NCBI GenBank assembly: GCA_030603805.1
Contig: JAUVXD010000001.1
Span: 377,518-441,517 of the forward strand
Reading direction: 5' to 3'
Length of the DNA stretch: 64,000 bases
DNA from: Acholeplasmataceae bacterium
Lineage (GTDB): Bacteria; Bacillota_I; Bacilli_A; Acholeplasmatales; Acholeplasmataceae
This document shows positions 10,296 to 42,286 of the stretch, one piece after another (the stretch's first letter is position 1; each line of letters begins with the position of its first letter). The position numbers were made by a program, and so were the translations under genes. Under the pieces are notes generated by a model that was given only the letters and a program-made list of their open reading frames with translations, had not been told where the DNA came from and ran no database searches.

Positions 10296-10340
10296 AAAAA
10301 AGACTTGATTTCTTGCATTTGCAAGTTCAAGTCTTTTTTT
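10296..10340. terminator. Bidirectional terminator between convergent operons
   Basis: AAAAAGACTTGA (from 10296) pairs with TCAAGTCTTTTTT (from 10327), and inside it CTTGC-ATTT-GCAAG forms the tip. A and T runs flank both sides, so it can stop the exporter operon (+) and the surface-protein operon (-). Confidence 0.85.
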
Positions 10341-13300
10341 ATGGCTTAATCATCCAAGCTTCAAATTCACCTACATTTAAATCAGGAACAAGATTTTGAT
10401 TGACACTTTGTGCCACATATGTAACACCTAAGTATTGAATGATATCTCCTGGAGTATAGGTACTATACTGATTCCATAATGAACTGATATTTCTAACACC
10501 TAATAAGCCTAAAGTGCCTGGAGGTGTCATCATATCATAAAGATACGTATATCCTTCTTGTACAAGCCAAGTAATTCCATTATAGTTAAACATCATGCCC
10601 GCCTGATACGTATAACCTTCTTGAAGCATCTCAATCATGGGTCGATAAGGTTGAACACTTTCGTGACCCCAACTTGGAACATATCCTTCATACTCAATGT
10701 ATACGGTGACATAATATTTTCTTGGTAGCAAGGAGTCTTCGAGATAAAATGCACTACCATCAATGGTCACTTCTTGTACGGATAGATGGTATGTATACCC
10801 TCTTGGTAAGTCCACATGAACGATATAAGTGCCATAAGTTGATGTTTGGAATTGATTATTGGAATAGCTTGCAGTTAAACTTTGGTAATAAGAGAATACA
10901 GACATTTGTAACAAATAATCAGATAAGCCACATGTCATCCCTTCAGCAACCCGGCAAACGTTGACTTTCACATGAACTCGGTCAAAGATTTCTTCTGTGT
11001 TATTAATGACTGTCAAATTAAACTTAATGTTATTGGTTACGTCTTGAACAGCAATGTAATAATCTGTATAATTTGATGGATTCACATTATAGTCTTGTGC
11101 ATAAACACGGTATCTGACATAATTGAAAACACCATCAGCAACCGAGAAATCAGTAAATAAATTGGTCGACTGATATTCGGGTCCAATGTTATTGGGATCA
11201 ACAACACGGCGAATGATTGCGTTATCTGGTAAAACAAAAGTTGGAGCATAAATAGAGAGATTAGTTCGCTGAACTTGTCCGATAATCCAATAGGTTGGAT
11301 ATCCTGCGTAGTTGCCATAGAAAATACCTGTTGTAGGCAATACGCTCATTGGTCTTGTTTCGGGATTTTGAAGATAGCTCATATAACTCATTTCGGTCAG
11401 TTCTTGGACATCAACAATCGTATTAAACCCTGAAAATAAGGTATCAGATACGAATAAGACGTTTTGAATCAAACTTTGGCTATTTTGAACTTTTTCAACT
11501 TCAATGACATCAAAGGTAAACATCCAACTTAAGGTGTGACCCCATAGTGTGACTTCATTTTGATAAATCGCATTAAAATAATAGGTTCCAATAGGCGTTT
11601 GCTTAGCAAGATCTATTTGATAACCGACCTCATCGATATAGCTCAGGAAGTAATCTTGATTTAGTACAGGTATTCCGTAACCATTAAATTCTGTAAAATC
11701 AAATTCATAGAGTAAAACACTACCATTTGGTAAATAGACATAGTCTACATCAAGTTCGATACGAATGGTTGGTGATTCGAAATATTGAACAACAAGTTCA
11801 TCTATAGGTTGTTCAACTTCACCACCATCTTGATAAACCTTAACCGGAGCACTGCTGATTGCTGCTTCTTCTAAAATGTGTGTGTAGGTATATAAACTAC
11901 CATTTTCAGCTTGTATTTGATAGGTCAGTGTATAACGATGTCTATAGCCATCAAAGATTTGAATATTGGTCAGTGCAACCGATTGCAGGGTTGCAAACGG
12001 AGAAATATTAAATGCGTCTAAATAGCTTGGAAAGAGTCCAAGTTCGATATCATCTTGATAAACACCAACTAGCGATGTAAGATTGGTAAAATTCACAGGT
12101 TTGGTTTGCGCATCTAAGGCTTGATAGAATAAGCCGTATGGAATTATTGACGTAAAAGTCGTGCCTATTGGAGAAACGGTTCTACCTTGATGTTCTAAGA
12201 TAATGATGGCGCCATTCGCACTTTGCACCTTTTGGAAAGTCACTTGTGCGATTTCACCTGTTACAAGTTTGAGTTCAAGTCGATAAGTGCCACTCGGCAG
12301 TTTATCTGTGACTGCAAACTCAATGGTTCCAGAACCTAACCCCCAAACCCCAGTTAAGTTGTTGAAACTATTGTTATTTTCAATAATACCATTACTTAAC
12401 TCATACAGAGTTGGATTAATCTCAGTATTTAAATGATTATAAAGTTTAACCATCGGAAGCAGTGCGTAACCATCAGATGCGTTCATGATTGAATAATTGA
12501 TACGAAGCGTACCTAAATCGCCACTTTGTTCAAAATGAATCATTTGATTTAAGGTAATATCTCTAAAATTAGAATAACTTGGCATCGCACTACTACCATT
12601 TAAGATGACTGAATTTAAGCTCGATAAAAATTGATTAGCAGTTCTTACAATTCGAATTTGATAATCTTTATATGTGAGTGGATCTGATGCGTTATATTCA
12701 CTAGAAAAGACTCGAACTGTGCCGTGATGATAATCAAGTTTATCAATAATCGCACCTGAAGGTGATGCATAAATGACATCATATATACCAAGTGCTCGTG
12801 GGATGGTGATATTTGAGGTTAATCCACTACCGTTAAATTTAAATGATGATCCTTGTGCAGACAGATAAGAACCAGTTTCAGTATTGGCTCTAAAGAAAAT
12901 ATTTGCTTGATCATAAATTGTTTGTGCACCAGCAGGTGTTTGAACGTAGGTGACAGCTTCTTTACTTGGGCCTACATATTGATAAGTACCATTGATATAC
13001 CATGGAACTGTTTCATTATTAGGGTTGCTGTATGTAATTAAACGATATGGCGCATATCCTGCAGCGTGTGTTGTAAAGCTATTTACTTCATAGCCGTAAC
13101 CATTATAACGATAGTTACCAGATCCTTGGTTTCCTTGAATATAGTATTGATGATGAACATGTTGGAAAACAAAGTTTAAAGATAACGTACCTGCAGTATC
13201 AACCGTTAATCTATTATACGCAGCACGTGTAATTTGGTTGGTTCTACTATAACTTGAACTCACTGGTCCCGATGTGGTTGTAATGTTATAGGTACCTGCT

Positions 13301-16300
13301 AAATCATATGGCCCAATAGCTACATAATTATCGCCAACTTTTTTATGTGTCCCAACCCACTTATAAACCCATTGTTGAGCAACGGTGTCATAATAATCAG
13401 GAACTTTTCTAGCACCTGCAACACCAGGAGATACTTCAACGAAATTCACGGTTTGAAGTTGTTGAGATTGAACACCAGTTAAAATCGTTGCATTCGATGG
13501 CAGATAAAATGTAATTAAAGCGCGTTCATCATCGATGACTGGACGTGTGAGCTTTAAGCCATTTGTTATCGGATTACCCGAACTATCAGTTTGAATAATT
13601 TCCATATCATAAATGGTTGTTCCAAAGGTTGTCTCAAGCTGGTTCATTAATCGAACAAGTTTATATGAAATCGTACCTGGTATTGTCACAGATCCTATCC
13701 ATGAAGTATCCACACCAAGAATCAAATCATAAGGATTTAATGGTGCGAGCTCAAGATGATTTGGAATAAATATACCATTGTTAATCCCTTCACTAGATGA
13801 TAGTACATATAGTCCTGGATACTGATTGCCACGATAAGCTTCTAATGATTGAACTAAATTCAGATTCGTTTTATTTCTTGGAACATAGGAAAAATAACCT
13901 CTTAAATATTTATCTGTACCACTGGTTCTAATTGGAAGTCTTCTAAAAATGTAGTCATTTGAGAAAATGCCATCTAAGGTTTCATTAAACTGATAAGATC
14001 GAACACTCTTAGAATATCTTGGGTTTTGTGGTGGAGATCCAAAAGTTTTACCTGCAAAAGGTGATACCGATGTGTCTTGAGTCTTAACGGTTGCCATCTT
14101 GTCAACAATTTCCATAATCGCTGTGTTACCAGGTGCAGATGAATCAAAAAGACTAGGGTCTAGTGTGGTCACCGGATTATTTCCAATGACATCGACTAAA
14201 GGATCCATATTTGCATGATAACCAAAATTCATGTTATCCAGTGGATAAATGGCTGTCGGTGATATCGAAACAAATTCCCAAGTTTCACTGCCTGTATGAA
14301 ATTTGCCAATGAATGAACCATAAGCATTAAATATTTGTCTCGTGGGTACTTGATACATGTTAATACTAAATGAACCATCATAGCTTGATATGTTTCTGAT
14401 ATATCCATAATTAATGTTATTAGCAAAGTAAACCTGATTCTTTTGGATGGCACCAAAACGGTTCATATAAACAAAACCAATGATACCTGATGATAAATAC
14501 TTAGAATATACATTACCATAGTTAATCGTATTGATCACACTTGCGAGTCCCATACCAAAGATACCAGCAGCTTTTGATCGAGTTTCTGATTGATAGGTAT
14601 AAAGGCTCTCATCGGTACCACTAAAGGCATAAATCGAACCATAGTTAATACTGAATATGACTTTGGCATATTTACTCATCGAGCCTGATGTCACAGGAAC
14701 AAAACTTGAAGTTAAATCATTTCTAACTGCAATCCCTGCAGCATGAGCGAAACCTAAGGTTGTTGTGGATACAGAAGTGATATTGCCCTGATTTGCAGAG
14801 TCTTTCACTTGAGCAAATTGTCCTTGAAGAAGATATGCAATACCTGCACTGGCATTTTCACCGCTTGATAAATAAATATCTGCTTTATTTTCAATATTGC
14901 CTAAGTTGATGGCGGTTGTGACTAAAGATGAGTTGACTAAAACAATACCTGATGCACGAGATGATCCATTAAACTCTCCTTCAATTAAAATATTACCATC
15001 ATTTAAGAGGTTATCTATTGGACCATGGATGCCAGTAATATTTTCAATCGAGGTTGTACTGATATTATTTTGTTGATAATAATTGGTGTTTTGATTACTA
15101 TAAAGAATGCCTGAAACAAAGAGATTTAAAGTGACTGGGTTAAAAAGATTGGATGTAATCGTTAAATCTCCACCATTAAATAAATCTTCAGCAACACGAT
15201 TTTGATTGACTGTTTCAATGACGCCATACACATGAAGATTGTGAGTTGTTGAACTGGTTTGATGATTAATATCTACGGTTATATTGCCATCATTTCTTAA
15301 GTGTTTGTAATCGATGTTTTCTCCGAGCACGACACCTGAGAACTTCATTAATGGATGAATAATGGTATTTGCAGAAATGAATGAAAGATGCCCTGTATTA
15401 TATGCTTGAGTGACTTCAGAACCCGTTGTTTCAGACATATCTAAAACACCAGCAAATCTTTTAACTAAGCTTAAATCAAGCACAAAATCACGTTCATTAA
15501 ATAAGCCTTTGAACGTTGCGTTTATTTGAGTTGTTCTCATAACACCTGACATTTGAATATTAAATGTTGCAAGTTGTGCTGGCGTGTAATTATTAGTTGG
15601 AAGTAAGACTCTTAAGCGTCCGTCATTGGTGATACTTTGATACTGATAAGATGCATCGATTGATTTTGATGTGCCATCAACAAATCCATATCCTGATAGT
15701 GATAGACTCACGGGTTCATTGGCATAAATGTCAATATTGCCATCATTAAAGACTTGTTTGACTAAACCATATTGATTTTGTTGATAACCAATAATCCCAC
15801 CAGCAAACATTGTCTTAATAAATCCTAATGATTGCCCTGAATAAAGATATCCTGAATTCACAACTTTTTCCATCGTTGAGAGGTTACCTAATCCAACGAC
15901 TCCACCTAAATATAGTGTTGAAAGATTAGAACTTGTAAAAGATAATCCTGTAACATCCATTGCATTATGTGCATAATTGATTTCAAATAAATCAGATTTT
16001 GCAACAAGTCCTGCAGTAGCAGATAAACTCGCTCTTGCATCATAAACTTGTGTTGCTTGATGAATGGTGCCATTCGTCGATACATTTTGAAGTTTACCGC
16101 GACCTTCTGCAACCAGCCCAGCCACATAAAGTCTTGTCATTGGATTGGTTGTTCCAGTGACTAAAATATCACCATGAACATGAACGTTTTCAATTAAACC
16201 TGCACTCATTTGACCAGCGATTGCTGCAACCACAATTTTAGAACGGCTTGTATGAAGTTCAATACCTTCGGTGATAACTTCCAAGTTGACGAAATTGATA

Positions 16301-17703
16301 TTTTTAACTTGTCCAAATAATGCTGAGAAGAGTGCATAAGATGCATAGTTACCTAGCTGAGTAGGTGTCGTAATTTTAAGGTTTAATATCGTATGGTATA
16401 AAATATCTCCACCTTGTGAAATATGTCTGTTATAAAGTTTAGTCCCATTAATTGGAGCACTGGATAAGATGCCATCAAACCCGACTGGAGCTGCTTTGTA
16501 TGCAGTTCTAGCGACTTGATTCATATCAATATCATTGACAATTTGGTAGTGTGCTGATCTAAATGCACCAGAAACTTTCAGTAGTTCATTGAAATAAACA
16601 AAGTCTACTGCATTTTCAATTTCAAGTTTTCCTTGATTAACTTTTAAGCCTTGAAGGATTGGGTAGGTGTTATTTAAGCTTAACTGAGTTGTTGAACCAC
16701 CACCTGCAAGAAGATGATAATGGTTATTGAAGTAAAAATCTGTAGTACTAAATATGGCAGGATTTTGGAAGCCTGAAGTTACAAGCGGTGTGCCATATGT
16801 GAGGAGTGCATCTAAATCACTGTAAAGTGATGCATCATAATAAACATTTTGAAGTGTCCCTTGATTCAAATATGTCACAGGGCTTACAGATTCATTATCA
16901 ACAACTGCAACTGATTTCACGTGTGGTGCTGAAATGAAACTATTTCTAAATGTACCACGGTTAATTGAAACTAATCCAGAAAGTCTAAAAGACCCCTCGA
17001 CATTAAGTCCTGAAGTGCCTTGTCTTGTGTCTATCATATAAACATTTTCAATGGTACCAAAGTTTTCACCAGCAAGATAGGAAACATGTTCCATAATGCC
17101 CCATTCAATCGGTTGAATGATGATTGGATTAATAAGACCTAAATTCTTAACGACACCTGTGGAAGACACTCTTGAAAACATCGAAAAGAAACGCAAACCA
17201 GGATATGATTCATTATACTCATCTTCACTTAATATTGTTTGGAAAAAGAGGTTTGTAATCTCATATCCTTGTCCATCAAATGTGCCGCTGAAAGGCTCAA
17301 TAAAGCCAATCGGTATGAAACGTGAAGCAATGTTTTGTTGCACGATTTCATAGTAGTCAATGCTTCTACCAAGCACATAATTTAAGGACAAATAGGTAGA
17401 ACGATTGAGACCTCTAGAAAGTTCAGAGAGCATATATAAATCATAAGCAGATTCAATAACATAAGTCTTTGTTAAATCCATAGATGCATTCCAAACTGTG
17501 ATATCTGAGAAAGGTAAATAATTACTTTCATAGTTCACATCAACTTGTGGTGTGAATCCTAAATCATGGGCCTTCCAAGAGCTTGTATCTTGATAAGAGG
17601 TTGCTTTTAAACTACCTTTAAAATCAATACCATCTAAAGCAAAAAAAGAGATGACTAAAATGAAAAGAACAAGCACGAGCTTTTTAAGTATGTTACGATC
17701 CAT
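10339..17703 (-). CDS. Giant secreted GLUG/beta-helix surface protein (cassette 1, gene G)
   Basis: 2,454 residues from the ATG at 17703, chosen over an upstream GTG because AGAGGTGA sits correctly before it. A signal anchor (about 8-26) leads the protein. FSGTFDGQGYEITNLFF near residue 135 and many later G(G/A)(I/V)(V/I)G...NxGxI units up to about 1,100 are GLUG-type repeats forming a long beta-helix. Around 1,680, a segment like a cadherin-like beta-sandwich occurs (IVRTANQFLSSLNSVILNG). The last 100 residues hold two short repeats resembling carbohydrate-binding module family 5/12, the clearest being LWNQYSTYTPGDIIQYLGVTY split around residue 2,400. There is no LPXTG and no C-terminal membrane helix. 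Likely a secreted adhesin or matrix protein. Lies downstream of riboswitch 1 with genes E and F; paralogue at 28050-35048. Confidence 0.85.
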   Translation of the reverse strand: MDRNILKKLVLVLFILVISFFALDGIDFKGSLKATSYQDTSSWKAHDLGFTPQVDVNYESNYLPFSDITVWNASMDLTKTYVIESAYDLYMLSELSRGLNRSTYLSLNYVLGRSIDYYEIVQQNIASRFIPIGFIEPFSGTFDGQGYEITNLFFQTILSEDEYNESYPGLRFFSMFSRVSSTGVVKNLGLINPIIIQPIEWGIMEHVSYLAGENFGTIENVYMIDTRQGTSGLNVEGSFRLSGLVSINRGTFRNSFISAPHVKSVAVVDNESVSPVTYLNQGTLQNVYYDASLYSDLDALLTYGTPLVTSGFQNPAIFSTTDFYFNNHYHLLAGGGSTTQLSLNNTYPILQGLKVNQGKLEIENAVDFVYFNELLKVSGAFRSAHYQIVNDIDMNQVARTAYKAAPVGFDGILSSAPINGTKLYNRHISQGGDILYHTILNLKITTPTQLGNYASYALFSALFGQVKNINFVNLEVITEGIELHTSRSKIVVAAIAGQMSAGLIENVHVHGDILVTGTTNPMTRLYVAGLVAEGRGKLQNVSTNGTIHQATQVYDARASLSATAGLVAKSDLFEINYAHNAMDVTGLSFTSSNLSTLYLGGVVGLGNLSTMEKVVNSGYLYSGQSLGFIKTMFAGGIIGYQQNQYGLVKQVFNDGNIDIYANEPVSLSLSGYGFVDGTSKSIDASYQYQSITNDGRLRVLLPTNNYTPAQLATFNIQMSGVMRTTQINATFKGLFNERDFVLDLSLVKRFAGVLDMSETTGSEVTQAYNTGHLSFISANTIIHPLMKFSGVVLGENIDYKHLRNDGNITVDINHQTSSTTHNLHVYGVIETVNQNRVAEDLFNGGDLTITSNLFNPVTLNLFVSGILYSNQNTNYYQQNNISTTSIENITGIHGPIDNLLNDGNILIEGEFNGSSRASGIVLVNSSLVTTAINLGNIENKADIYLSSGENASAGIAYLLQGQFAQVKDSANQGNITSVSTTTLGFAHAAGIAVRNDLTSSFVPVTSGSMSKYAKVIFSINYGSIYAFSGTDESLYTYQSETRSKAAGIFGMGLASVINTINYGNVYSKYLSSGIIGFVYMNRFGAIQKNQVYFANNINYGYIRNISSYDGSFSINMYQVPTRQIFNAYGSFIGKFHTGSETWEFVSISPTAIYPLDNMNFGYHANMDPLVDVIGNNPVTTLDPSLFDSSAPGNTAIMEIVDKMATVKTQDTSVSPFAGKTFGSPPQNPRYSKSVRSYQFNETLDGIFSNDYIFRRLPIRTSGTDKYLRGYFSYVPRNKTNLNLVQSLEAYRGNQYPGLYVLSSSEGINNGIFIPNHLELAPLNPYDLILGVDTSWIGSVTIPGTISYKLVRLMNQLETTFGTTIYDMEIIQTDSSGNPITNGLKLTRPVIDDERALITFYLPSNATILTGVQSQQLQTVNFVEVSPGVAGARKVPDYYDTVAQQWVYKWVGTHKKVGDNYVAIGPYDLAGTYNITTTSGPVSSSYSRTNQITRAAYNRLTVDTAGTLSLNFVFQHVHHQYYIQGNQGSGNYRYNGYGYEVNSFTTHAAGYAPYRLITYSNPNNETVPWYINGTYQYVGPSKEAVTYVQTPAGAQTIYDQANIFFRANTETGSYLSAQGSSFKFNGSGLTSNITIPRALGIYDVIYASPSGAIIDKLDYHHGTVRVFSSEYNASDPLTYKDYQIRIVRTANQFLSSLNSVILNGSSAMPSYSNFRDITLNQMIHFEQSGDLGTLRINYSIMNASDGYALLPMVKLYNHLNTEINPTLYELSNGIIENNNSFNNLTGVWGLGSGTIEFAVTDKLPSGTYRLELKLVTGEIAQVTFQKVQSANGAIIILEHQGRTVSPIGTTFTSIIPYGLFYQALDAQTKPVNFTNLTSLVGVYQDDIELGLFPSYLDAFNISPFATLQSVALTNIQIFDGYRHRYTLTYQIQAENGSLYTYTHILEEAAISSAPVKVYQDGGEVEQPIDELVVQYFESPTIRIELDVDYVYLPNGSVLLYEFDFTEFNGYGIPVLNQDYFLSYIDEVGYQIDLAKQTPIGTYYFNAIYQNEVTLWGHTLSWMFTFDVIEVEKVQNSQSLIQNVLFVSDTLFSGFNTIVDVQELTEMSYMSYLQNPETRPMSVLPTTGIFYGNYAGYPTYWIIGQVQRTNLSIYAPTFVLPDNAIIRRVVDPNNIGPEYQSTNLFTDFSVADGVFNYVRYRVYAQDYNVNPSNYTDYYIAVQDVTNNIKFNLTVINNTEEIFDRVHVKVNVCRVAEGMTCGLSDYLLQMSVFSYYQSLTASYSNNQFQTSTYGTYIVHVDLPRGYTYHLSVQEVTIDGSAFYLEDSLLPRKYYVTVYIEYEGYVPSWGHESVQPYRPMIEMLQEGYTYQAGMMFNYNGITWLVQEGYTYLYDMMTPPGTLGLLGVRNISSLWNQYSTYTPGDIIQYLGVTYVAQSVNQNLVPDLNVGEFEAWMIKP

Positions 17704-17727
17704 GTTTGTCACCTCTTTTCTTTTTTC

Positions 17728-18411
17728 TTATGTATTGAAGAAGTTTGGGTCAATGCCCCATACTTCTGAAAATCTATTAGCTTGGACAACTTCGATGCGA
17801 AGGTCGATATAAACGAAGGCAGATTCGGTAAAGACATCATTGGTTCTCGTGATATAGCGATCGCCACCATCAATGAGTCTAATGACGGTTGTTTTGTTTT
17901 TTTCAAGCAGCATATCGAAGTATGCATATCCGTTCAAATCATAGATAGGGTTCCAAGTCGGATCTGTTTTGAGGAGTGAGAATGGGTAATACCCTGAACC
18001 CATATTGACATGATAGAGTGCTTCTTTCACTGGTGCAATTGGATACTGGGGATCTTGTTCGAGATACGTTCTGGTGAGTTCCCATTCGTCCATGAGCTTT
18101 AATCTACCTCTTGATGTGTTATACGGTGTGATGTAGATATCAATGGTGAGTTTTCCAATATAATTTTCACTATTTGGATCATAAGCATTCACGATAATGA
18201 CTTGTTTTTCAATATCATAGAAAGGACTCGTAAAGGATACAATGTCACCATCAAAAGCTGCAATAATTTCAATCTCATAATCACTAGTGACAATCACAAT
18301 GCCACGTTCATTACTTCGAATAAAGTAGGCATAAACTGAGATCAGTGATGCGATGAAAATCAAGATAAAGACAATCAATGATAAAGAAAATTTTTGTCTT
18401 AAGTGAATCAT
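17728..18411 (-). CDS. Exported/anchored small surface protein F (cassette 1)
   Basis: 227 residues. The N-terminal helix FSLSLIVFILIFIASLISVYAYFIRSNE has the Y-A-(W/Y)-F pattern shared by all small exported proteins of these cassettes; the YAYF ending is where SipW-type processing would be expected. The remaining part is beta-rich, with ...VNAYDPNSENYIGKLTIDIYI and VIRLIDGGDRYITRTNDVF. It lacks the IWxEGxDPD motif of A-C. The start ATG overlaps the stop of gene E (ATGA). Paralogue of the protein at 35065-35730 (shared EWELxRT, VIVNAYDP, VVQANR). Function unknown; probably a structural subunit or linker to giant protein G next door. Confidence 0.75.
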   Translation of the reverse strand: MIHLRQKFSLSLIVFILIFIASLISVYAYFIRSNERGIVIVTSDYEIEIIAAFDGDIVSFTSPFYDIEKQVIIVNAYDPNSENYIGKLTIDIYITPYNTSRGRLKLMDEWELTRTYLEQDPQYPIAPVKEALYHVNMGSGYYPFSLLKTDPTWNPIYDLNGYAYFDMLLEKNKTTVIRLIDGGDRYITRTNDVFTESAFVYIDLRIEVVQANRFSEVWGIDPNFFNT

Positions 18412-19067
18412 TCAATGGTCACCTCACCCTTAGCACTAATCGTATCAATGATGAGGGTAAGACTGTATGATTGGTCGAGATATCCTGATTGGTTACTTGC
18501 AAGATCATAATCTCCCCAGAAAATGATTCTAAAGCTTAAGACATCATTTTCTTTGATGATCGTTTGATAGATGGCATCTAAAATGGTTTGATTATATGTT
18601 TCGATCATTTCAAGCGCTTCTGTTTTAGATTGATGTCCATTGATAATAGAAAGGATCATTTGATGATAAGCTTTATCGACACTTGAAGAATCAATATTCA
18701 CACCATCTAAAACGATGAAATAGATTAATCCTTCTGGATTACCCTCAGCTAAAATTCTAATCATATTCTTAGTGAGAGGCGATCTTGGATTATTTCTAAT
18801 ACTAATGGATAGAGATGAAACCATATAATCAAAGGTCATGGATTGATTAAGTTCAACATCTTTATCAAAGTCTAAATAGGCTAAGTCAACTAAGTTGAAA
18901 TTATTGATGGTCATCGTATCATTCATATAGGTTGTGATTTGAATTTCACCAGCTTCAAAGATGGCAAGTGATTTTCTTTCAACATAAGTGAACCATGCAT
19001 AAGTGATGGATGTGATTGAAACGATGAGGATTAAAATGGTGATGATGGATAATGTATAACGCTTCAT
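18408..19067 (-). CDS. SipW-type exported protein E (cassette 1)
   Basis: 219 residues from the ATG at 19067. AAAGGAGG lies 7 bases upstream, so I reject the upstream ATG at 19085. The signal segment TLSIITILILIVSITSITYAWFTYVERKS carries the YAWFT motif. The mature part is beta-rich with VLDGVNIDSS and a C-terminal IIFWGDYD, which sits where A-C have IWxEGxDPD. First gene after riboswitch 1, so expression of E, F and G depends on that switch. Paralogue at 35735-36379 (shared YAWFT, WGDY). TasA/camelysin-like by layout; no specific function known. Confidence 0.78.
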   Translation of the reverse strand: MKRYTLSIITILILIVSITSITYAWFTYVERKSLAIFEAGEIQITTYMNDTMTINNFNLVDLAYLDFDKDVELNQSMTFDYMVSSLSISIRNNPRSPLTKNMIRILAEGNPEGLIYFIVLDGVNIDSSSVDKAYHQMILSIINGHQSKTEALEMIETYNQTILDAIYQTIIKENDVLSFRIIFWGDYDLASNQSGYLDQSYSLTLIIDTISAKGEVTIE

Positions 19068-19097
19068 CGACTTGCCTCCTTTCATCGGTTTTTAAGC

Positions 19098-19190: not shown

Positions 19191-19228
19191 TTAGTATATA
19201 TAATATATTATATATATTTCCTGATATA

Positions 19229-19257
19229 ATTATATGCCTTTTGTCAAAAAATGTCAA
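19229..19257 (-). promoter_or_regulatory. Promoter of riboswitch 1 / E-F-G operon
   Basis: Perfect consensus on the minus strand: TTGACA (19252-19257), exactly 17 bases, TATAAT (19229-19234). The -35 overlaps the stop codon of the signal peptidase gene that ends at 19254. A 22-bp A/T-only perfect palindrome (19195-19216) lies in the leader between start site and aptamer. Confidence 0.85.
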
Positions 19258-26965: not shown

Positions 26966-26974
26966 ATCAATCAC

Positions 26975-34000: not shown

Positions 34001-35048
34001 TTAAGATTGGATAATGATGATATAAGGTGAGCTGACCTAAAAAATTAAGATCTGTTGTCAACCCATGGTATGAATGATTAAAATACCAATCACTAGAAAA
34101 ATAGGAAGCATTTTGAAAATCATCTTTTGTAAGTCCTATGGCAAATGATGTTGAAGCATTGCGATCAACATAAATACTTTGATCATAATAAACTTGATCC
34201 AGTGTTCCGGTATTTTCTCTTAAGAAAACAGATGTCGATAAAATATTAAACACAGAAAGTGCTTTGACATGTGGGGTTGCAACATAGGCATTTGAGATAT
34301 GTCCTTTATTAACCGAGACTAAACCTGATAAGTGCATATCACCTTCAATGTGTAATCCTGATGTTTCTCTTCTCGTATCTACATAATAAACATTTTGAAT
34401 CAGACCGTTGTTTTCTCCAACTAATGGTGCAACATGCGCCATAAGTCCCCAATCAATGGGTTGAATCATAATGGGGTTAATTAATCCGAAATTTTTAATT
34501 TCAGCAGAGGAACTGATGACTGAAAACATCGAAAAATAACGCATACCAAAATAGAGTTGGTCATACGTGTTCTGATCAAGTATGGTTTGAAAATATAGGT
34601 TTGAGATTTCAAAACCTTGACCATCAAATGTGCCTGTGAAAGGCTCTGCAAAGCCAATGGGATGAAATCTATAAGCAACCGATGTTAAGACTGCATCATA
34701 GTAATCGATATGATTGCCAAGTACATAATCCAAGGACAAAAAGAGTGTTTTATGTTCACCCATTGAGGCAACAGAAAAATGGTATAAGTCCATCGCATTT
34801 TCAATAACAACCTTTTTTTCGACATCGATTAAGTGGGGTTGTTGATAAATTGAACTAAAGGGTACATAAGGGCTGTCAATAGAAACTTCTCTTAAGACCT
34901 CGTGTGTCATGTCTAGACCTTTCCATTGTTCAATCAGATCATAATCTGCTGCAATCACGTCACTTGGGTGTTCAAATCTAAAAAAAAGGAGCAATGTGAT
35001 GATCACAAGACATAGGAAAGTAACTTTCTTAAGTAGACTTCTGATCAT
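28050..35048 (-). CDS. Giant secreted GLUG/beta-helix surface protein (cassette 2, gene G)
   Basis: 2,332 residues from the ATG at 35048, chosen because AAAGGAG lies 8 bases upstream; the ATG at 35072 lacks a ribosome site. Signal segment about 6-25 (KVTFLCLVIITLLLFF). FTGTFDGQGFEISNLYF near 135 and repeated GLUG-like units to about 1,100 indicate a beta-helix. Around 1,660 a cadherin-like sandwich pattern (IVRTEDAGLSNLLSLHVNG) is visible. Colinear with the giant protein at 10339-17703 over nearly all its length, but it stops at WGEWVTTEIPVLPE and lacks the carbohydrate-binding-like tail. No sorting signal or C-terminal helix. Likely a secreted matrix/adhesion protein. Confidence 0.85.
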   Translation of the reverse strand: MIRSLLKKVTFLCLVIITLLLFFRFEHPSDVIAADYDLIEQWKGLDMTHEVLREVSIDSPYVPFSSIYQQPHLIDVEKKVVIENAMDLYHFSVASMGEHKTLFLSLDYVLGNHIDYYDAVLTSVAYRFHPIGFAEPFTGTFDGQGFEISNLYFQTILDQNTYDQLYFGMRYFSMFSVISSSAEIKNFGLINPIMIQPIDWGLMAHVAPLVGENNGLIQNVYYVDTRRETSGLHIEGDMHLSGLVSVNKGHISNAYVATPHVKALSVFNILSTSVFLRENTGTLDQVYYDQSIYVDRNASTSFAIGLTKDDFQNASYFSSDWYFNHSYHGLTTDLNFLGQLTLYHHYPILRGLAYQDGILFIKDALDLLYMNELFLVSGYFRSAHYQIIHDIDMNQVSIDAYVAAPVAFSGQLSSSLISEETILYERTSLSGGTKDYHSIIDLRIRKGTALGNFASYGLFALLFGQVRHLNFVGLSIDTTDIINHAHRTKILVGAIAGQMNQGLIDDVHLNLHVNIRSSITPISKLLVGGLVGEGTGNLTNISAVGAIHQNIQSFRLDSNHSATAGILGYSEGISLSYIKSDVDVLGVGYASYQNQTTYVAGILGHGKIITAEKLMNLGDIVSHNLGSHLGMSYVGGIFGLIVDQKNMISGLFNQGDLTLNLSSKLSSNFSGVMNVDGSGYSEDSIASFTNLSNQGILKIDLLENIYLSEADLSDITIHGSGVMVAENLNATYQGLFNESHSALNLSLIDSFAANLNQRGESSGRLTQSYNTGNFNFTSSHLVTQPHLKISGNALGNHLDYRHLRNDGNIEVIFNHGSGLTQGNLYVLGLLETLNQDKTAFDLYNGGHLSIFKQTEASVLMNIFMSGILYKNANSNHLISQNYVHSSVNFLTEYTSPLDHILNHGYLTLSGNFTGSSKLSGVAIYNESLLTNAYNTGHIKNYHQTPLDNEAAGLIYAQLGQYAFLRDASNAGTVEALNLGSGFSHASGIVLRNDRLENGNLIQTGSNHRFQKIMFAINYGEIYAWSNHQESLTISQETRSKASGILTLGLSSIISVMNYGDVYSKYLSSGIIGFIPLNRFGALVQSNEIYLGNIINYGRIRAISSYSSTYELELNSNPTRTLLNAFGAIFGKFHTGTESWTFLNQSTSSNKFPIDLINFRNIINFDPKNDILGNAPTVSLSNDMIQYGLGNQTLLDIINEMKTIKPVDQSKEPFNHFPLSYNSKTTLYGKVVSAYTMSENPGGMFYLPLVNKTTGSEQYLSKYLIYTRRIDIGETLLAKLDQNLGEPYIGIYAMTDSKSIHHGHYLPDALDLNRLSPKTSSQPSTIWQGSEQDIGSPLYFLKNKMKQVSPASASYLYDLEIVQTNSEGEPIEQGLTLSKPEINEARKLITYYLPTNASILSHQSVSTQHVVGYYETSFGVGKGRKVPYINEAGTWTYKIVGAYKKSGSSYDAIGPYHTDGIYNVTFQYTSNPKSVKDTDDLVGSAIYAQTDLSGAQSHLSMLYIHRPHVKNFISGNAWWVNEPGYQVLSQTLVQPGYGPYKATTFPFPPNYGPIYTYAGPSQELMTYDRVEQQVKIYAGNDLYFGISNRENAYNISEGATLVENDLTKVPKSLGTYDLISNPTTGEKIDAISDYYGSIRVKASNYHEDDPNTYQDYNIRIVRTEDAGLSNLLSLHVNGQHALPSFSNFRDVTANTPISYRLYQQEGILNVTYQTLNLPHQYDLKPQVKVYYDEPGHEDELLDPNFYQLENGIVSNTNINYHFSGVLGSGTVNLLFKVDDLLPSGAYRIEILMITGEVAIIRFEKMKSPEAQIKSYTFDGKTFIPNTQSEVHMIDYGIYYDPDDLRTSHVNFSNLSLLENISFDEMDQNLPSYLSGLEISNFATLKDIELMIETYAVNRYQYKILYRIEAENGTESIFTHILREHPYVVIPESIYMNGSLIEYTSEPTIIAYTEAPTVRIEFDLKHVFVKNQQTISMTSLMIPAGHDQAILHQDYFINLLAGVGFEVDFNRFIPLGVYQFNARYEQEVFIWGEQLSWTFDFEPVIFEKVQNNNSLISDIQFISDTIYSGFNTIVHYQALTENTYTFLYENPELRSITVLPTKGIYYGNYAEEPAFWIVGQVQKTNLTFYQPTFTLPHGGTIRRVIDYLNIGPEYQSDVLNADFSPIGDTFNFILYRVYAHDYDPDINPLNYTNYYIAVQDISNNIRFNLTISNQSSQSIDALFVKVRVCDLIFGCSSLPVLEMGVHATYDVLTDTFKNHAFQTTMSGMYQVLPSIGKDLSYYVIVQSQVISGNSFVLENALLPKKYFITVVIVDRNETRPWGEWVTTEIPVLPE

Positions 35049-35064
35049 AATATCGCTCCTTTCT

Positions 35065-35730
35065 TCATTCAAAAAAATTAGTATTTAAGCCCCATAAAGC
35101 ATAGAGTCTATTGGCTTGAATCACTTCGACTTTAATGCCAAGTTTTAAGGTACATGTTTCTTCATAGATGTCATTTTCTCTGACTGGATATGCATCTCCA
35201 CCTGAAATTAAGTGAATTTGAGTCACCCCAGGTTCTAATATGACTGGATGATAGCTATATCGATCGAGTCCAAATTTTGGTTGATAATCTTGTGCAAGTT
35301 TAAGTAAAGTATAAGGGTAGTATAAGCTTGATTTTTGTCCGATATAGATCGATTCATACACGGGGTCCATGGGATAAAGTCCATCAGGATTGAAAGTACG
35401 TTTGAGTTCCCATTCATCTTTAAGTTCAATGCGTGCATAGGCTAAAATCTTTGTTTGAATTAAAATGACGACATTCAGTTTACCGATGAAATTTGGACTA
35501 TCTGGATCATAGGCATTGACAATAATCGTTTGGTTTTCTTGATCATAATAAATACTTTCTTGATCAATTGATAAATCATCAAATGAAACCAAAAGCATAA
35601 TATCAAAAGTGCCTTTTTCAAGAATAATCGTTTTGATGTGCGTCTGGGTAAAGTAAGCATATGTCCATGTTAAAAGACTGAGTAAAAAAAAGATGATAAC
35701 ACTATAGATAATGATAATTTTTTTTCTCAA
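35065..35730 (-). CDS. Exported/anchored small surface protein F (cassette 2)
   Basis: About 221 residues if it starts at the TTG at 35730, which has GGAGGTT 7-8 bases upstream and aligns with the start of its paralogue at 18411; an in-frame ATG at 35748 and GTG at 35760 lie inside gene E without a ribosome site. The N-terminal helix IIIIYSVIIFFLLSLLTWTYAYFTQ ends in YAYFT. Shared with the paralogue: IIVNAYDPDSPNFIGKLNVVI, DEWELKRTF, HLISGGDAYPVRENDIYEE, VEVIQANR. No IWxEGxDPD. Function unknown; next to giant protein G in both cassettes. Confidence 0.72.
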   Translation of the reverse strand: MRKKIIIIYSVIIFFLLSLLTWTYAYFTQTHIKTIILEKGTFDIMLLVSFDDLSIDQESIYYDQENQTIIVNAYDPDSPNFIGKLNVVILIQTKILAYARIELKDEWELKRTFNPDGLYPMDPVYESIYIGQKSSLYYPYTLLKLAQDYQPKFGLDRYSYHPVILEPGVTQIHLISGGDAYPVRENDIYEETCTLKLGIKVEVIQANRLYALWGLNTNFFE

Positions 35731-35734
35731 ATCA

Positions 35735-36379
35735 CTAACCTCCAACATTACTTTGAGCACGAATCGTTATCTTAAATTGTGCGATAAAGCTATGATACTC
35801 AACTGGGTCATTTAATGAGTTATAATCGCCCCATAAAGCGATTTTTATAGTCATATTGTCTAATGGATAAATGGTTAAAGATGCGACATAATCAAGGATG
35901 GATTGATTATATTGATTGATGGCAAGTCTTTGTTCATTTTTAGTCGAATGTGGGTCAATGATAGTTAATATAAGCTCATGAAATGATATTGCGTCATCTG
36001 AATCTTGTTCAGCATCAATACCTTCAAATAATAGGATGTAAATTAAGGCATCATCTGAAGATTCTAGTTCGATATTATAAAATGAAACCGGTGACTTTTG
36101 ATCCAGTTTGATATCTAATCGAATGATAGATGCCATTTCATCAAGTAAACCAGAGTGATTTAAGATGAAATCATCCTCATAATCGATAAAGACAAGATTA
36201 TCTATGTCAAATAATCCCTGATAAGTATCTTGATTGATTAATACTTCAAATTTTAGTTCACTTGCAGTAAGGGTTGCAACACTTCTTCTTTGAATGAAGG
36301 TAAACCATGCATAAGTGGTTGCAAATAATGACATCATCAGTAGAATAATCATCAAACAAATGATAAGATGTTTTCTCAT
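35735..36379 (-). CDS. SipW-type exported protein E (cassette 2)
   Basis: 214 residues. Signal segment HLIICLMIILLMMSLFATTYAWFTFIQRRS with the YAWFT motif. Acidic mature domain with LLFEGIDAEQDSDDA, and IALWGDYN near the C-terminus, as in the paralogue at 18408-19067. AAGGAG ribosome site. In this cassette it follows D after 5 bases with no room for a riboswitch, unlike cassette 1. Confidence 0.78.
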   Translation of the reverse strand: MRKHLIICLMIILLMMSLFATTYAWFTFIQRRSVATLTASELKFEVLINQDTYQGLFDIDNLVFIDYEDDFILNHSGLLDEMASIIRLDIKLDQKSPVSFYNIELESSDDALIYILLFEGIDAEQDSDDAISFHELILTIIDPHSTKNEQRLAINQYNQSILDYVASLTIYPLDNMTIKIALWGDYNSLNDPVEYHSFIAQFKITIRAQSNVGG

Positions 36380-36384: not shown

Positions 36385-37152
36385 TTACGCTCCTTCTTCA
36401 GGATGAATCGTAATCATCATATAAAGATGCTCAATCCATAATGTTTGATTCATAAAGATATTACTATTTGGATACGGATTTCCCTCTAGATCCCTCCCAT
36501 AAATACTTGGATCAAAATAGAGTTCAAAATAAACGATTAACTCATTACTACCTGTATAAATATCAAGTGTAGGTACATTTTTAACAATTGGATAGAGTTC
36601 ATTTGAACTTAATCCAAAATGATTTTGATACCGGATGATAGGATGATACGTGCTTCGATCAGGAGTTTCTACACCTTCATTCATGTAGCTGATTTTTGTC
36701 ACTTGATATTCAAACGCAATTTGAATTAAATTATAAGCATCAGGTGCCTGTGTGGATCTAATACCGCCAAAATCTAATTTGAGATAAGCTTGTTTATCCG
36801 TAAGATTCGTGATTACTAAGGCAAAACTAAATCTAGATCCTGGAGCAATACTTCCATTAAATAGATGATTGATTGTTGGTTCTTCGATTTCTTTGTAACA
36901 AAAGACTTCAGTATCTAAACATAACTGATTGTATAAATCTTTCAACTGATCGCCTTGGTTGTAATGATCTTGATAGACATAAAACTGGTAAGATGTTTCA
37001 ATTTCAGTGAGATCGGAAATAAGTCTAGCATCGTTTTGATTGGTAATGGTAAACCAAGCATATGCAGTGATTGCAAGCGCAAAGAAACTAAAACATAGAT
37101 AAAAGGTAATAGAAATGACGGTTCGATAACAGATGTGTTTAGATGATGTCAT
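36385..37152 (-). CDS. SipW-type exported protein D (cassette 2)
   Basis: 255 residues from the ATG at 37152; GAAGGGG fits this start, while the ATG at 37170 lacks a ribosome site. Signal segment VISITFYLCFSFFALAITAYAWFTITNQ with YAWFT. Two cysteines (LCLDTEVFCYKE) correspond to those in the cassette 1 paralogue, and the C-terminal DLEGNPYPNSNIFMNQ motif is conserved. Candidate surface fibre subunit. Confidence 0.8.
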   Translation of the reverse strand: MTSSKHICYRTVISITFYLCFSFFALAITAYAWFTITNQNDARLISDLTEIETSYQFYVYQDHYNQGDQLKDLYNQLCLDTEVFCYKEIEEPTINHLFNGSIAPGSRFSFALVITNLTDKQAYLKLDFGGIRSTQAPDAYNLIQIAFEYQVTKISYMNEGVETPDRSTYHPIIRYQNHFGLSSNELYPIVKNVPTLDIYTGSNELIVYFELYFDPSIYGRDLEGNPYPNSNIFMNQTLWIEHLYMMITIHPEEGA

Positions 37153-37173
37153 GCCATCCCCTTCTTTCATTAT

Positions 37174-38703
37174 TTAAAACATTTTCTTAATATTATTCAA
37201 GAATGCTTGGCATTCAGTAAATGCATCACGACCGAAAAGTTTAACTAAAAGCTTAGATAAATCATCGATTTCTGTTCTTAAGAATGGCAAGTTTAACCCT
37301 TCAAATTTTCTAAATATTTTGCGTGCAACCATATAATCAAGAGCATCGGATTCACTACCACCGGATGCAACATACACTGGAACAAACGCACGAATTTGCT
37401 TCATAATACGGTTACCAAAGGTTACTTTAAAGTTTTTGGTGATGAAATGATCTAGTTTTTCTAAGTTTTCAACTGCACCAAGACTCATCGGATGTTCTTT
37501 ATAAGCTGTTCTAAATAAATCTTCTAGGTATTCATAGGGTATTCTGACACCATTTGTTGGTTTGGCATCAATGTAATCTGCTTTTGTATTAATTTCAATA
37601 GGTGTTGCACGGTCATATACTTTATCGGTTACGATAAATGTAGAATCATCTTTATTGGCAGTACCAATAAACCAAACGTTTTGAGGTAACAAAATCTTTC
37701 CACCTTGAAGATGCTTGGGATCTCCTGGAATACTATCTGCAACAATATCAACAAGCCATTGATCATGATCTGGAAGTTCAAGCAATGATAAAAGCTCTGC
37801 AAAATAATACTCAACACGTGCAAGGTTCATTTCATCTAAAACAATAATATTAATATCGTCTCGATATGTCGTTTCATAAATAGCCTTTAAAAAGTCTGTT
37901 TCATTGAACTTTTTAGTAAATTCATTTAAGTAACCGAGCATTTCAGCACGATCACGCCATGAGGGTTGAACAGCAATGATTTTCGCATCAAATCCGAAAA
38001 ATTTACCCATCGCATAGGGCAGTGATGTTTTACCTGTACCTGAAATACCTTCAAGAATCATGGTTTTTGAAGCTGCCATACCTGCAATAAAAGCTCGAAT
38101 AATTTTATGATTATAATATAATCCAAGTTTGGATGCTGCAAAATTGATAAATCGATCCACAAGTTGTGAAAGTGGGATCATATCCTCTTCTTTCATGACT
38201 GTCTTGATGATGCCATCAGGATATTTTAAATCAACTTTGTTGAGCTTAATAAATCTAAGATGACTTGTTTCATCATCTAGGTCATCTTCAACATCATCCA
38301 CGCTTTGATCTGGATTAATGCCGAGATTTGAAACTTTGAGTGCTAAAATCTTATTTTTCTCATCAAGAAGTTCTACAACTTTATCATTGAGAAATGCAAT
38401 TTCTGTCACAAGTTCTTCTTTATGAAGCTCAGATTTAACAAATTTAATATATTTCTTGAGCCATTGTGTAAGCTTTAAAACAATCACACCAATAAAGATG
38501 AGATTTACAATTAAAACAACAACAGCCATCAGCCAATCTAAAAGAGTGAATCTGGTGCTTGAGACGATGAAATTTTCGAAGATTCTACCAAGATCCGTTG
38601 AAAACAAGGTGACAAAGACATAAAACATGTCTTTAAAAAACTCACCTATGACTTCAAAGAGATCTCGTAGAAAACTAATATAGTATCTACCGAACTCAAC
38701 CAT
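37174..38703 (-). CDS. Membrane-anchored McrB-like AAA+ ATPase (cassette 2)
   Basis: 509 residues, colinear with the ATPase at 22594-24129 and highly similar across the whole AAA+ domain. Two N-terminal hydrophobic segments, coiled coil (VTEIAFLNDKVVELLDEK), acidic linker, then Walker A GISGTGKTS, Walker B IIVLDEMNLARVEYYFAEL, and FIGTANKDDSTFIVTDKVYDRA. The linker between coiled coil and AAA+ is the most divergent part. Function inferred as for its paralogue: an ATP-driven step of export or assembly at the membrane. AGGAG ribosome site. Confidence 0.88.
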   Translation of the reverse strand: MVEFGRYYISFLRDLFEVIGEFFKDMFYVFVTLFSTDLGRIFENFIVSSTRFTLLDWLMAVVVLIVNLIFIGVIVLKLTQWLKKYIKFVKSELHKEELVTEIAFLNDKVVELLDEKNKILALKVSNLGINPDQSVDDVEDDLDDETSHLRFIKLNKVDLKYPDGIIKTVMKEEDMIPLSQLVDRFINFAASKLGLYYNHKIIRAFIAGMAASKTMILEGISGTGKTSLPYAMGKFFGFDAKIIAVQPSWRDRAEMLGYLNEFTKKFNETDFLKAIYETTYRDDINIIVLDEMNLARVEYYFAELLSLLELPDHDQWLVDIVADSIPGDPKHLQGGKILLPQNVWFIGTANKDDSTFIVTDKVYDRATPIEINTKADYIDAKPTNGVRIPYEYLEDLFRTAYKEHPMSLGAVENLEKLDHFITKNFKVTFGNRIMKQIRAFVPVYVASGGSESDALDYMVARKIFRKFEGLNLPFLRTEIDDLSKLLVKLFGRDAFTECQAFLNNIKKMF

Positions 38704-38722: not shown

Positions 38723-39418
38723 TTAAGCAGACTTGGGGTCTTGGCCAATCTTTAATTCTGCTAAAATTTGCTTTCTAATTTTTTCTTTTTCAATTTCAAG
38801 TTCTGACATCGCTTTTTGCTCAATGATCTTAAACTCTTTTTCAAACTTAACCTTGTTTGAATGCATGATGTTTTTAATTAACACAATACCTTCAATGATT
38901 AAAATAATGACCACGGGTAAAATAATCATGAGTGCAAAACCACCTGCAGATTGTAAGTAGTCGAGCGTAGTACCAAGTCCAGCTACACTACTATGATATG
39001 TAGCAAGCACTTGTGTGTAATGAAGTGGTTGTGCATCTGGTTCAGCCACGTTATCACCTTGCGTGATGAAATAGAGTTCACCATCAACAGTGAAAAGGTC
39101 AACAATTCTGTGGGTATTAAAAGATTTAATACTGTGATCAAAATAGGTAACAACTGATCCAATCTCTAAACTCGATTTTTGAGATTCACTAAGCATCCTA
39201 ACAAAAATTAAATCACCTTGGCTAAATGAGCTTGATTCAGTACCAGCCATGGAATTGGATTGGACAGATAGAAAACCTGTACCAAAAACATTAGCAATGT
39301 CATTTTCTTTCTTAACTCTAATATTGGCTGCTGAAAAGATCAGTAGGGTAATGATAAACATGTAGAAAAGAACATTGAGCGTCGCTTTAGCAGCATTGCT
39401 TAAGACGTTTTTTTTCAT
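38723..39418 (-). CDS. SipW-like signal peptidase I (cassette 2)
   Basis: 231 residues, with two membrane helices (about 12-32, 165-188). Catalytic serine in SVQSNSMAG, histidine in FNTHRIVDL, FITQGDN: the Ser/His class. The charged coiled-coil tail after the second helix (KVKFEKEFKIIEQKAMSELEIEKEKIRKQILAEL, given in part) ends QILAEL, exactly as in the copy at 24162-24860. AAGGAGA ribosome site. Expected to process exported proteins of cassette 2. Confidence 0.93.
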   Translation of the reverse strand: MKKNVLSNAAKATLNVLFYMFIITLLIFSAANIRVKKENDIANVFGTGFLSVQSNSMAGTESSSFSQGDLIFVRMLSESQKSSLEIGSVVTYFDHSIKSFNTHRIVDLFTVDGELYFITQGDNVAEPDAQPLHYTQVLATYHSSVAGLGTTLDYLQSAGGFALMIILPVVIILIIEGIVLIKNIMHSNKVKFEKEFKIIEQKAMSELEIEKEKIRKQILAELKIGQDPKSA

Positions 39419-40607: not shown

Positions 40608-41570
40608 TTAAGTGATTGCCGCTCTAGCGACTTTAAACTGCAATTGGATTTTTATTCTGTCTTCCAAGATACAATCAAATGTATCTGGATCCCAGCCTTC
40701 AACCCAAATGTTGATTCTTACCTTGCCGGTGTAATACTCTCTTTGCCTAGAATCATATGTTCCAGAAGGCTGAAGTTCAGCAATCAAGGAATGATTATCT
40801 AAGGCTTGGTAAGGGTTAAGCTCATGAAATTCTGTAAGTTTGTAAATCGTTTCTGGTTTGGTTTGAGGAACTTCAAGTTTTGTTCCTGTGATTAACTCAA
40901 AGTAGTGATAAGCACCAAATGGCATTGCATAACCTCTTGCCTCATTTTCAGAAGGATCATAAATCATGCTCACAAATGCACTTTCGGGTCTTAAATCTAA
41001 AGGGTTTCGATCATTTTTCAGTTCAATAGCTGAAATTCTTACAGCATCTGCAGCATAGAACATCGTCGGTATTCCCGCATAAGCGATATCATTTGGATCT
41101 AAACCGTTTTGAAAATCAAATCTAGGTGACCAGCTCACACCTCTGGAAACAACGAAGGTTCCAGGGACCGATGTATCATATTGAACTCGGTTGTTGACAT
41201 TGTTAACTAAATACACATGATGTTCGGGTCGTGTGGTTCGAAAATAAATGTCAAATGATAAATACTCAAGATTTCTTACCGCTAATCCAGGTGACCTAAT
41301 CCCACCACGTTCGAAATTGATACCATCAGTTGATGTGACATCATCGAGTCTAATTTGTCTAAGTAATTGCTCCATCACCACATGCGGTAAAGTTGAATCA
41401 AATGTTTCACCATCTAATGAGAGTTCAAGTTCATTGCCTGCAGTCGCTGTGATGGTGATGTTTTCAAGATTATTGATCATCGACATCGATAGCCATGCAT
41501 ACGATACCGTTCCAAACAAGATGAGTACAGTTAAGAGTGACAATACAGAAAAGTTGAGTTTCTTAAACAT
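40608..41570 (-). CDS. SipW-type exported protein B (cassette 2)
   Basis: 320 residues. Signal segment SVLSLLTVLILFGTVSYAWLSMSM with the SYAW motif and mature start TATAGNELELSLDGETF. C-terminal VRINIWVEGWDPDTFDCILEDR is the clearest example of the IWxEGWDPD signature. The ribosome site is weak (AGGCAG). Paralogue at 26000-26965, sharing DVTSxDGxNF, YLSFD and PYQALDN. Confidence 0.8.
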   Translation of the reverse strand: MFKKLNFSVLSLLTVLILFGTVSYAWLSMSMINNLENITITATAGNELELSLDGETFDSTLPHVVMEQLLRQIRLDDVTSTDGINFERGGIRSPGLAVRNLEYLSFDIYFRTTRPEHHVYLVNNVNNRVQYDTSVPGTFVVSRGVSWSPRFDFQNGLDPNDIAYAGIPTMFYAADAVRISAIELKNDRNPLDLRPESAFVSMIYDPSENEARGYAMPFGAYHYFELITGTKLEVPQTKPETIYKLTEFHELNPYQALDNHSLIAELQPSGTYDSRQREYYTGKVRINIWVEGWDPDTFDCILEDRIKIQLQFKVARAAIT

Positions 41571-41575
41571 TGTAT

Positions 41576-42286
41576 TTAACTGCCTGTATCAATGGCGAAA
41601 GTCATTTGCAACTTCACCATGCCACCTAAGATGTCATCGACTGTATCTGGATCTGTACCCTCAATCCAAATCACGATACTGAACTTTCTAACATCACCTG
41701 GTTTAAAATTAGGAATCCTTTTTCTTGTGACGATGGTATCTGTTAGAAAATGAACAGGCTTGATATTGTTTGGAATTTCTGCAACAGGCGTGCCACTACT
41801 TGAGGATTCTGGTTTTTTATAGACAGTTTCTACGTCATCTTCGATCACTAATATCCGAATGGCTGCATCCATGTTCTTGTAAACATCGGTAATCCTAATA
41901 TGATATCCAATATCGACAGTCTCACTGCCATTATTTTTTAAATGGAACGTGTACGCGATGTAATCGAAATCAGGATCTATATAATTACCTTGAGCAAGTT
42001 TAACCTCATCAAGTTTTAACCAGGCGTAATTCATATCAATGGCTTCATCAACTGCACGTGTCATTAATCTTGCCTGCGGGTTTGAGAATGTATCATCCTT
42101 AGAAAGTATAATGCCACGTTTATAGGCTTCATAATCAACGGTCATTAAGAAGTTTCCTGCATTTTGCCCATAGAAAGTAATGAGAACAAAAATGATAGAA
42201 AGCATGCCGCTTGCAAGGAAAATCATATGATAAAGTCTACTTTTTTTCTGTCTTTTCTTGACTTGTAAAACACTTGAAAGCTTCAT
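41576..42286 (-). CDS. Exported protein A (cassette 2), first gene of the cassette
   Basis: 236 residues. Basic N-terminus, then MIFLASGMLSIIFVLITFYGQNAGNFLMTV as signal or anchor. YAWLKLDEVKLAQGNYIDPDFDYIAYTFHLKN and the C-terminal FSIVIWIEGTDPDTVDDILGGM match the cassette 1 paralogue closely. GAAGGTG ribosome site. It follows an extended -10 promoter; no riboswitch is found upstream. Confidence 0.82.
   Translation of the reverse strand: MKLSSVLQVKKRQKKSRLYHMIFLASGMLSIIFVLITFYGQNAGNFLMTVDYEAYKRGIILSKDDTFSNPQARLMTRAVDEAIDMNYAWLKLDEVKLAQGNYIDPDFDYIAYTFHLKNNGSETVDIGYHIRITDVYKNMDAAIRILVIEDDVETVYKKPESSSSGTPVAEIPNNIKPVHFLTDTIVTRKRIPNFKPGDVRKFSIVIWIEGTDPDTVDDILGGMVKLQMTFAIDTGS

Follow-up and report, generated by a model that had tools for sequence, protein, structure and literature searches.

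Tandem SipW-type export gene clusters with McrB-like AAA+ proteins and cyclic di-GMP riboswitches in an Acholeplasmataceae bacterium

Gene content of the two clusters

The window analyzed here is a 64,000-nucleotide stretch of an Acholeplasmataceae bacterium genome (GenBank assembly GCA_030603805.1, contig JAUVXD010000001.1, positions 377,518 to 441,517), and the coordinates below are positions within it; all its features discussed here lie on the minus strand (-). It carries two tandem gene clusters, copy 1 at 42286-28050 and copy 2 at 27682-10339, which encode SipW-type signal peptidases, small exported proteins, a McrB-like AAA+ protein and a giant exported protein. The clusters are tightly packed and comprise 20 genes in total. 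All-against-all BLASTP revealed the common gene order A-B-C-SipW-AAA-D-E-F-G, and the best match of every gene was its counterpart in the other copy, with identities ranging from 31 to 69% (A 51%, B 46%, C 40%, SipW 51-52%, AAA 69%, D 41-42%, E 31-33%, F 39%, and G 41% over 2370 amino acids (aa)). The intergenic distances within the copies were -26 to 168 bp, and the reading frames of all genes were open in both. A preliminary description of the window had already proposed two tight tandem cassettes with shared order and gene-by-gene paralogy, which these matches and distances upheld. It had also assigned nine genes to each, which is correct for copy 1 and for the shared subset; copy 2 has 11 genes, of which the two overlooked encode a McrC-like protein (between AAA and D) and an additional SipW-type peptidase (between D and E).

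The three peptidases were identified by the TIGR02228 profile (cut-off 51.85 bits). Sip1 (38723..39418), an endoplasmic reticulum (ER)/archaeal-type signal peptidase, and Sip2a (24162..24860) scored above the cut-off (68.7 and 63.4 bits), and Sip2b (19254..19952) fell just under it (49.1 bits). All share the Ser, His, and GDN catalytic motifs; membrane segments lie close to the two termini, and the C-terminal tail is charged (cytosolic). They did not reach the 190-bit threshold of the Bacillus SipW equivalog NF046067 (68.8, 75.3, and 43.9 bits).

Candidate substrates of these peptidases are encoded on both sides of the AAA genes. In proteins B to F of both copies, the first hydrophobic segment is followed by a SipW-type [Y/F]A[W/Y][F/I/L] motif: B1 (40608..41570, SYAWL) and B2 (26000..26974, SYAWI), C1 (39515..40549) and C2 (24973..25929; both TFAWF), D1 (36385..37170, AYAWF) and D2 (19965..20723, IYAWF), E1 (35735..36379) and E2 (18408..19085; both TYAWF), and F1 (35065..35760, TYAYF) and F2 (17728..18411, VYAYF). 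The motif is absent from G and from A1 (41576..42286) and A2 (26975..27682), a pair of small exported or membrane proteins, so that five of the six small proteins per copy first described as exported bear it. Among homologues it was detected in 54 of 71 for B, 53 of 61 for C, 23 of 28 for D, 14 of 26 for E, 19 of 37 for F, and none of 60 for A. Of 140 other open reading frames with a hydrophobic N-terminus, 10 had the motif, several of them being SipW-type proteins of the same loci. LPXTG C-terminal sorting signals, as in sortase-assembled pili, were not found in A-F or G1, and G2 has one internal LPTTG. The structure model of C2 is beta-rich (predicted local distance difference test (pLDDT) 87), with a disordered stretch directly after the motif. 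A Sulfolobus filament (7pnb) ranked eighth among its fold matches and was rejected as not significant (E 0.21).

AAA1 (37174..38703) and AAA2 (22594..24129) are membrane-anchored AAA+ proteins of the McrB-like NxD type. They have a Walker A motif GISGTGKT, a Walker B motif LDE (IIVLDEM in AAA1), and the sequence GTANKDD (NxD then D), of which the N, D, and D are invariant across 28 homologues. Their only good matches among PDB sequences were to E. coli McrB (E 7e-4). The N-terminus consists of a hydrophobic membrane segment followed by a charged helix-like stretch, without a Pfam match to FtsB/DivIC. The McrB-like nature of the membrane AAA+ ATPase reported before had been missed. The McrC-like protein of copy 2 (20744..22579, 611 aa) has a DUF2357 domain (Pfam E 2.1e-10), corresponding to the N-terminal domain of McrC, followed by a long, charged C-terminal stretch that reads as an apparent coiled coil. 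DUF2357 was its only match in the Pfam search, and no nuclease domain was found there. Its profile gave weak matches to PDB sequences, mostly to coiled-coil proteins or apolipoproteins, so the McrC-like label rests on DUF2357. The gene had one match in its own genome and none in copy 1; the genome thus has two AAA genes and a single McrC-like gene. Triplets with an AAA gene on either side of one McrC-like gene were observed in other families of the class (loci L147, L150, and L158), providing a precedent for two AAA proteins sharing one McrC-like protein. A second type of AAA and McrC-like pair lies beside a 2500-2900-aa protein, with no adjoining SipW gene found (L082, L143, and L161), and in L143 and L161 an EAL protein adjoins it.

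The giant exported proteins are G1 (28050..35072, 2340 aa) and G2 (10339..17712, 2457 aa). The N-terminal 750 aa of G1 gave a strand-rich AlphaFold2 model (pLDDT 88.8) that is consistent with a beta-helix, and the earlier label of a giant beta-helix protein is retained for this part only. Many beta-helix proteins were among the leading Foldseek matches, none at E ≤ 0.001. G2 has additional C-terminal segments (10342-11262) similar to the chitin-binding module CBM5/12 (CBM_5_12 E 0.004, below the curated cut-off), which are absent from G1, so that G1 and G2 may differ in what they bind.

Cyclic di-GMP riboswitches and GGDEF-EAL genes

Two riboswitches of the cyclic di-GMP (c-di-GMP)-I class (RF01051; Rfam covariance match, gathering score 35 bits) were detected, both in copy 2. 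Riboswitch 1 (27752..27829, 66.2 bits) forms the leader of copy 2 before A2. It is preceded by a TTGACA-17-TATAAT promoter with 12/12 consensus positions (27857..27885) and followed by a terminator hairpin with a T run (27737..27765, -15.7 kcal/mol, z -5.1). Riboswitch 2 (19121..19195, 55.1 bits) leads E2-F2-G2, with a promoter of the same form read directly from the sequence (19229..19257) and a terminator hairpin plus T run (19103..19134, -19.1 kcal/mol, z -5.9). In both cases, the final 14 nt of the aptamer are also the 5' arm of the terminator hairpin. Because this 3' strand is common to both structures, the ligand-bound aptamer should block the terminator, and we infer that c-di-GMP turns both riboswitches ON. 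No riboswitch was found before copy 1 at the gathering or a relaxed threshold; the microRNA matches returned by the relaxed scan were regarded as chance. Copy 1 is probably expressed independently of c-di-GMP.

Directly upstream of copy 1, at 42544-46622, lies a pair of GGDEF-EAL genes, and the functional unit therefore reaches beyond 10339-42286. The first (43983..46622) encodes an 879-aa protein with a Pfam EAL domain (E 1.4e-63) in which all EAL catalytic motifs are kept and the GGDEF motif is degenerate; it is predicted to be a c-di-GMP phosphodiesterase. Its EAL motifs were intact in most rows of a 26-row alignment, and its position upstream of A is conserved. The second (42544..43986) encodes a 480-aa protein (EAL E 3.6e-57) with a degenerate GGDEF motif and DGFG in place of DDFG, and is predicted to be a catalytically inactive c-di-GMP receptor; DG also replaces DD in the commonest sequences of its 29 homologues. 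Of 39 informative loci, 28 had the pair immediately upstream of A. Genome-wide, 22 GGDEF domains were found, at least 14 with the canonical motif. This regulatory layer, both the riboswitches and the GGDEF-EAL genes, had been overlooked in the preliminary description.

The arrangement is shared by relatives with full copies, that is, those resembling copy 2. A riboswitch preceded A in all 12 of those scanned and a further one, often in tandem, was found in the SipB-E/F region in 11; aptamer and terminator overlapped in 34 of their 36 riboswitches. At these two fixed offsets, riboswitches were present in 31 of 44 McrC-bearing loci and in none of 17 loci without the McrC-like gene (some of the 17 being near contig ends). 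In scans of six reduced copies, resembling copy 1, every riboswitch detected lay downstream of G and was part of the following copy. The two locus positions account for 73 of the 147 c-di-GMP-I riboswitches in 61 genomes, and a riboswitch also precedes A in Acholeplasma oculi, A. granularum, and more distant bins. Three or four tandem aptamers occur before A in some loci (L027 6113-6439, L026 6053-6368, and G033:C2:259425-259876), mostly each with its own terminator where checked, possibly forming a sharpened or AND-type switch.

The other two c-di-GMP-I riboswitches of the source genome also lead genes for SipW-signal proteins, and all four thus serve SipW-type export. One heads a locus (L164, G000:C20:6000-24000, about 10284-13592) with two small SipW-signal proteins and three peptidase-like (SipW-type) proteins; similar riboswitch-SipW pairs are on shared contigs in several relatives. 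The other (L165, G000:C11, 209-1581) leads a SipW-signal protein with GLUG-like repeats, whose listed TTG start falls in the leader, and the true start is probably downstream. Elsewhere in the window, a lysine riboswitch (54633-54783 (-), 68 bits) precedes a lysine/diaminopimelate operon (dapB, dapH, and an aminotransferase) in this wall-less lineage.

Distribution and duplication history

Neighborhood maps were drawn for 80 related loci from named genomes. The usual set in relatives was A, one to several B/C genes, SipW, AAA, the McrC-like gene, sometimes D, and a second SipW, completed by E/F/G-type genes in the nearer relatives; these maps led us to abandon an initial view of a nine-gene unit. 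The larger set was present in Acholeplasma, Paracholeplasma, Anaeroplasma-like and other metagenome-assembled genomes. Peloplasma aerotolerans M4Ah (Acholeplasmataceae), which belongs to the same genus as the source of the window, is the closest named relative judged by these loci; the species consists of wall-less cocci (PMC11122141).

Of 61 genomes, 37 had a strong AAA match, each together with the McrC-like gene, and 22 had neither. At E ≤ 1e-40, a cut-off that also admits further McrB relatives, the AAA family was detected in 101 of the 296 genomes sampled from the class; in a phylum sample of 392 genomes searched at E ≤ 1e-90 it was detected in 75, with all matches listed falling in the same class. 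The proximity of AAA and McrC-like genes to SipW-type peptidases and YAWF proteins extends to other orders of the class, in several cases together with EAL genes.

The AAA proteins of the lineage formed one clade of 38 rows (support 100/100), including 23 full copies. Loci without the McrC-like gene formed a single clade of 15 (97/96), except for one row cut by a contig end. The nearest full-copy clade was supported at 100/97, and its sister relation to the reduced-copy clade was weak (84/65). The copies of the window are thus not each other's closest relatives, as each is nearest to the same copy in other species, and only at the level of the copy clades does the weak sister relation place them together; the nearest relatives of each copy indicate that the duplication is ancient. 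Trees of A, B, Sip, D, E, and F separated the copy types in one to three changes, and that of C in four. The gene trees tracking the copy split, with some mixing in C, agree with the AAA clades and upheld the proposed duplication of the surface-assembly cassette as a unit. The gene content of the relatives shows the 11-gene set to be ancestral and the nine-gene copy 1 a derived, reduced form of one old lineage. The simplest account is a single ancient duplication, after which copy 1 lost the McrC-like gene and the second peptidase. Copy 1 might alternatively be a decaying or redundant duplicate without a distinct role, as it lacks the McrC-like gene, the second SipW, and the riboswitches. This is very improbable given that all its reading frames are open, AAA1 is still 69% identical to AAA2, and the reduced copy persists as a clade of its own in 15 loci from related species.

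A defensive function was also considered, in which the McrB/McrC-like pair would be a membrane-bound defense module and the exported and giant proteins a phage barrier or sensor. The DUF2357 partner is present, and the related CoCoNuT systems are predicted, where they are treated in PMC11090510, to be defense systems. The McrC-like protein is however without a detectable nuclease domain, the synteny of the locus is kept across the genus and wider order and tracks the c-di-GMP riboswitches, and no defense genes adjoin it among the neighbors scanned. A defense role is accordingly quite unlikely.

A possible export and assembly system and its relation to known systems

The reading we consider probable is that c-di-GMP switches on a SipW-dependent system for export and assembly of surface fibers or adhesins, with a McrBC-type motor assisting, in a wall-less acholeplasma. 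Its regulatory architecture is well supported by the sequence features of the locus; the processing of B-F, the formation of fibers and the role of the motor are more conjectural. In this scheme, the diguanylate cyclases of the genome would make c-di-GMP, and the upstream EAL pair would degrade or sense it. When bound to c-di-GMP, the riboswitches would hold the aptamer 3' strand so that no terminator forms, and A2-Sip2b and E2-F2-G2 would be expressed. The SipW-type peptidases would then cleave the signal segments of B-F at the observed motifs, and the processed beta-rich proteins may polymerize at the outer face of the membrane, with the giant beta-helix protein G as a far-reaching adhesin. 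The membrane-anchored McrB-like ring, stimulated by the nuclease-less McrC-like partner, would spend nucleoside triphosphate (NTP) energy, either clustering the peptidase or driving or gating export and assembly. The motor of copy 1 may borrow the single McrC-like protein of copy 2 or work without one. On the evolutionary side, a McrBC-family NTPase motor could have been recruited from nucleic-acid defense to build c-di-GMP-switched surface fibers, with the second copy released from that control and relying on the same single activator, a proposal that we hold tentatively and with some doubt.

Several points weigh against the fiber system. We know of no direct precedent for an assembly role of the McrB family, known otherwise from restriction. 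AAA1 has no adjacent McrC-like gene, and the motor might not always need such a partner. No TasA or camelysin family match was found for A-F in Pfam/NCBIfam profile searches, and the fold search with C2 gave no PDB match at E ≤ 0.001, with TasA outside the top 50. In addition, no fibers are reported for Peloplasma, for which a plain three-layered membrane is described (PMC11122141), and direct signs of fibers were not found for these organisms.

The idea of fibers comes from analogy with the SipW systems of Bacillus and Clostridium perfringens. The exported proteins may instead not polymerize, forming an S-layer-like coat or separately anchored receptors, with the AAA pair as a MoxR-like membrane-protein chaperone. 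Such a coat would fit six differing small proteins in place of one major subunit, the lack of a SipW motif in A, and a C2 model without a confident match to any solved filament subunit. Yet the SipW peptidases of Bacillus (TasA papers) and C. perfringens (PMC7395162) serve polymerizing proteins, and the disorder of the C2 model just after the cleavage motif is as expected of a donor strand; we regard the coat or receptor arrangement as unlikely. If the fiber system is confirmed, an AAA+ family known for restricting foreign DNA has a further role as a motor for surface assembly, and the production of fibers or adhesins is a regulated program in wall-less bacteria. This could be tested in culturable relatives with the full locus, namely Peloplasma aerotolerans, Acholeplasma oculi, A. 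granularum, and Paracholeplasma vituli.

Our literature searches found no paper joining SipW with Acholeplasma, or c-di-GMP, riboswitch and Acholeplasma, and we could not find an earlier description of a SipW peptidase, a McrBC-family motor and c-di-GMP RNA sensors in one cluster. The locus resembles SipW-TasA-TapA of B. subtilis and CalY-TasA of B. cereus in its dedicated ER-type peptidase beside small YAWF-type exported proteins, and differs in having no recognizable TasA or camelysin domain and in the added McrBC-type motor, giant protein and c-di-GMP control. The sipW-bsaABCRSD locus of C. perfringens likewise combines SipW with several exported proteins, of which BsaA forms filaments, but is under two-component control, and its description includes neither an AAA/McrC-like pair nor a giant protein (PMC7395162). 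With E. coli McrBC the clusters share a homologous AAA+ domain and the DUF2357 activator, but here the AAA+ protein is membrane anchored and has NxD for NxxD, and no methylcytosine-binding or nuclease domain was found. In the Lap system of Pseudomonas, c-di-GMP governs a giant adhesin through an inactive EAL protein as receptor; a giant adhesin under c-di-GMP and an inactive EAL protein as likely receptor are proposed here too, whereas control is by riboswitches at the level of transcription and in a wall-less Gram-positive lineage.

The closest known relative is CoCoPALM, named by Bell et al. 2024 (PMC11090510) in a few sentences of the main text that do not give its anatomy; only this paper and its preprint were relevant in the literature on the name, other matches being unrelated. 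Its core is given there as an NxD McrB-like GTPase fused to an FtsB-like domain (membrane segment plus coiled coil), a McrC homologue with a coiled coil of its own, and a signal peptidase, and NxD then D as a trait of the NxD branch. The NxD McrB-like GTPase, the McrC homologue with a coiled coil (in copy 2), and the linked signal peptidase are all present at our locus. The system first called undescribed is therefore not wholly new in its core, whereas the six substrates, giant beta-helix protein, second peptidase, EAL pair, and c-di-GMP riboswitches go beyond the main text of that paper. To these barely described CoCoPALM systems, the clusters add the first detailed anatomy that we found, with candidate substrates and a tie to c-di-GMP via riboswitches and EAL proteins.

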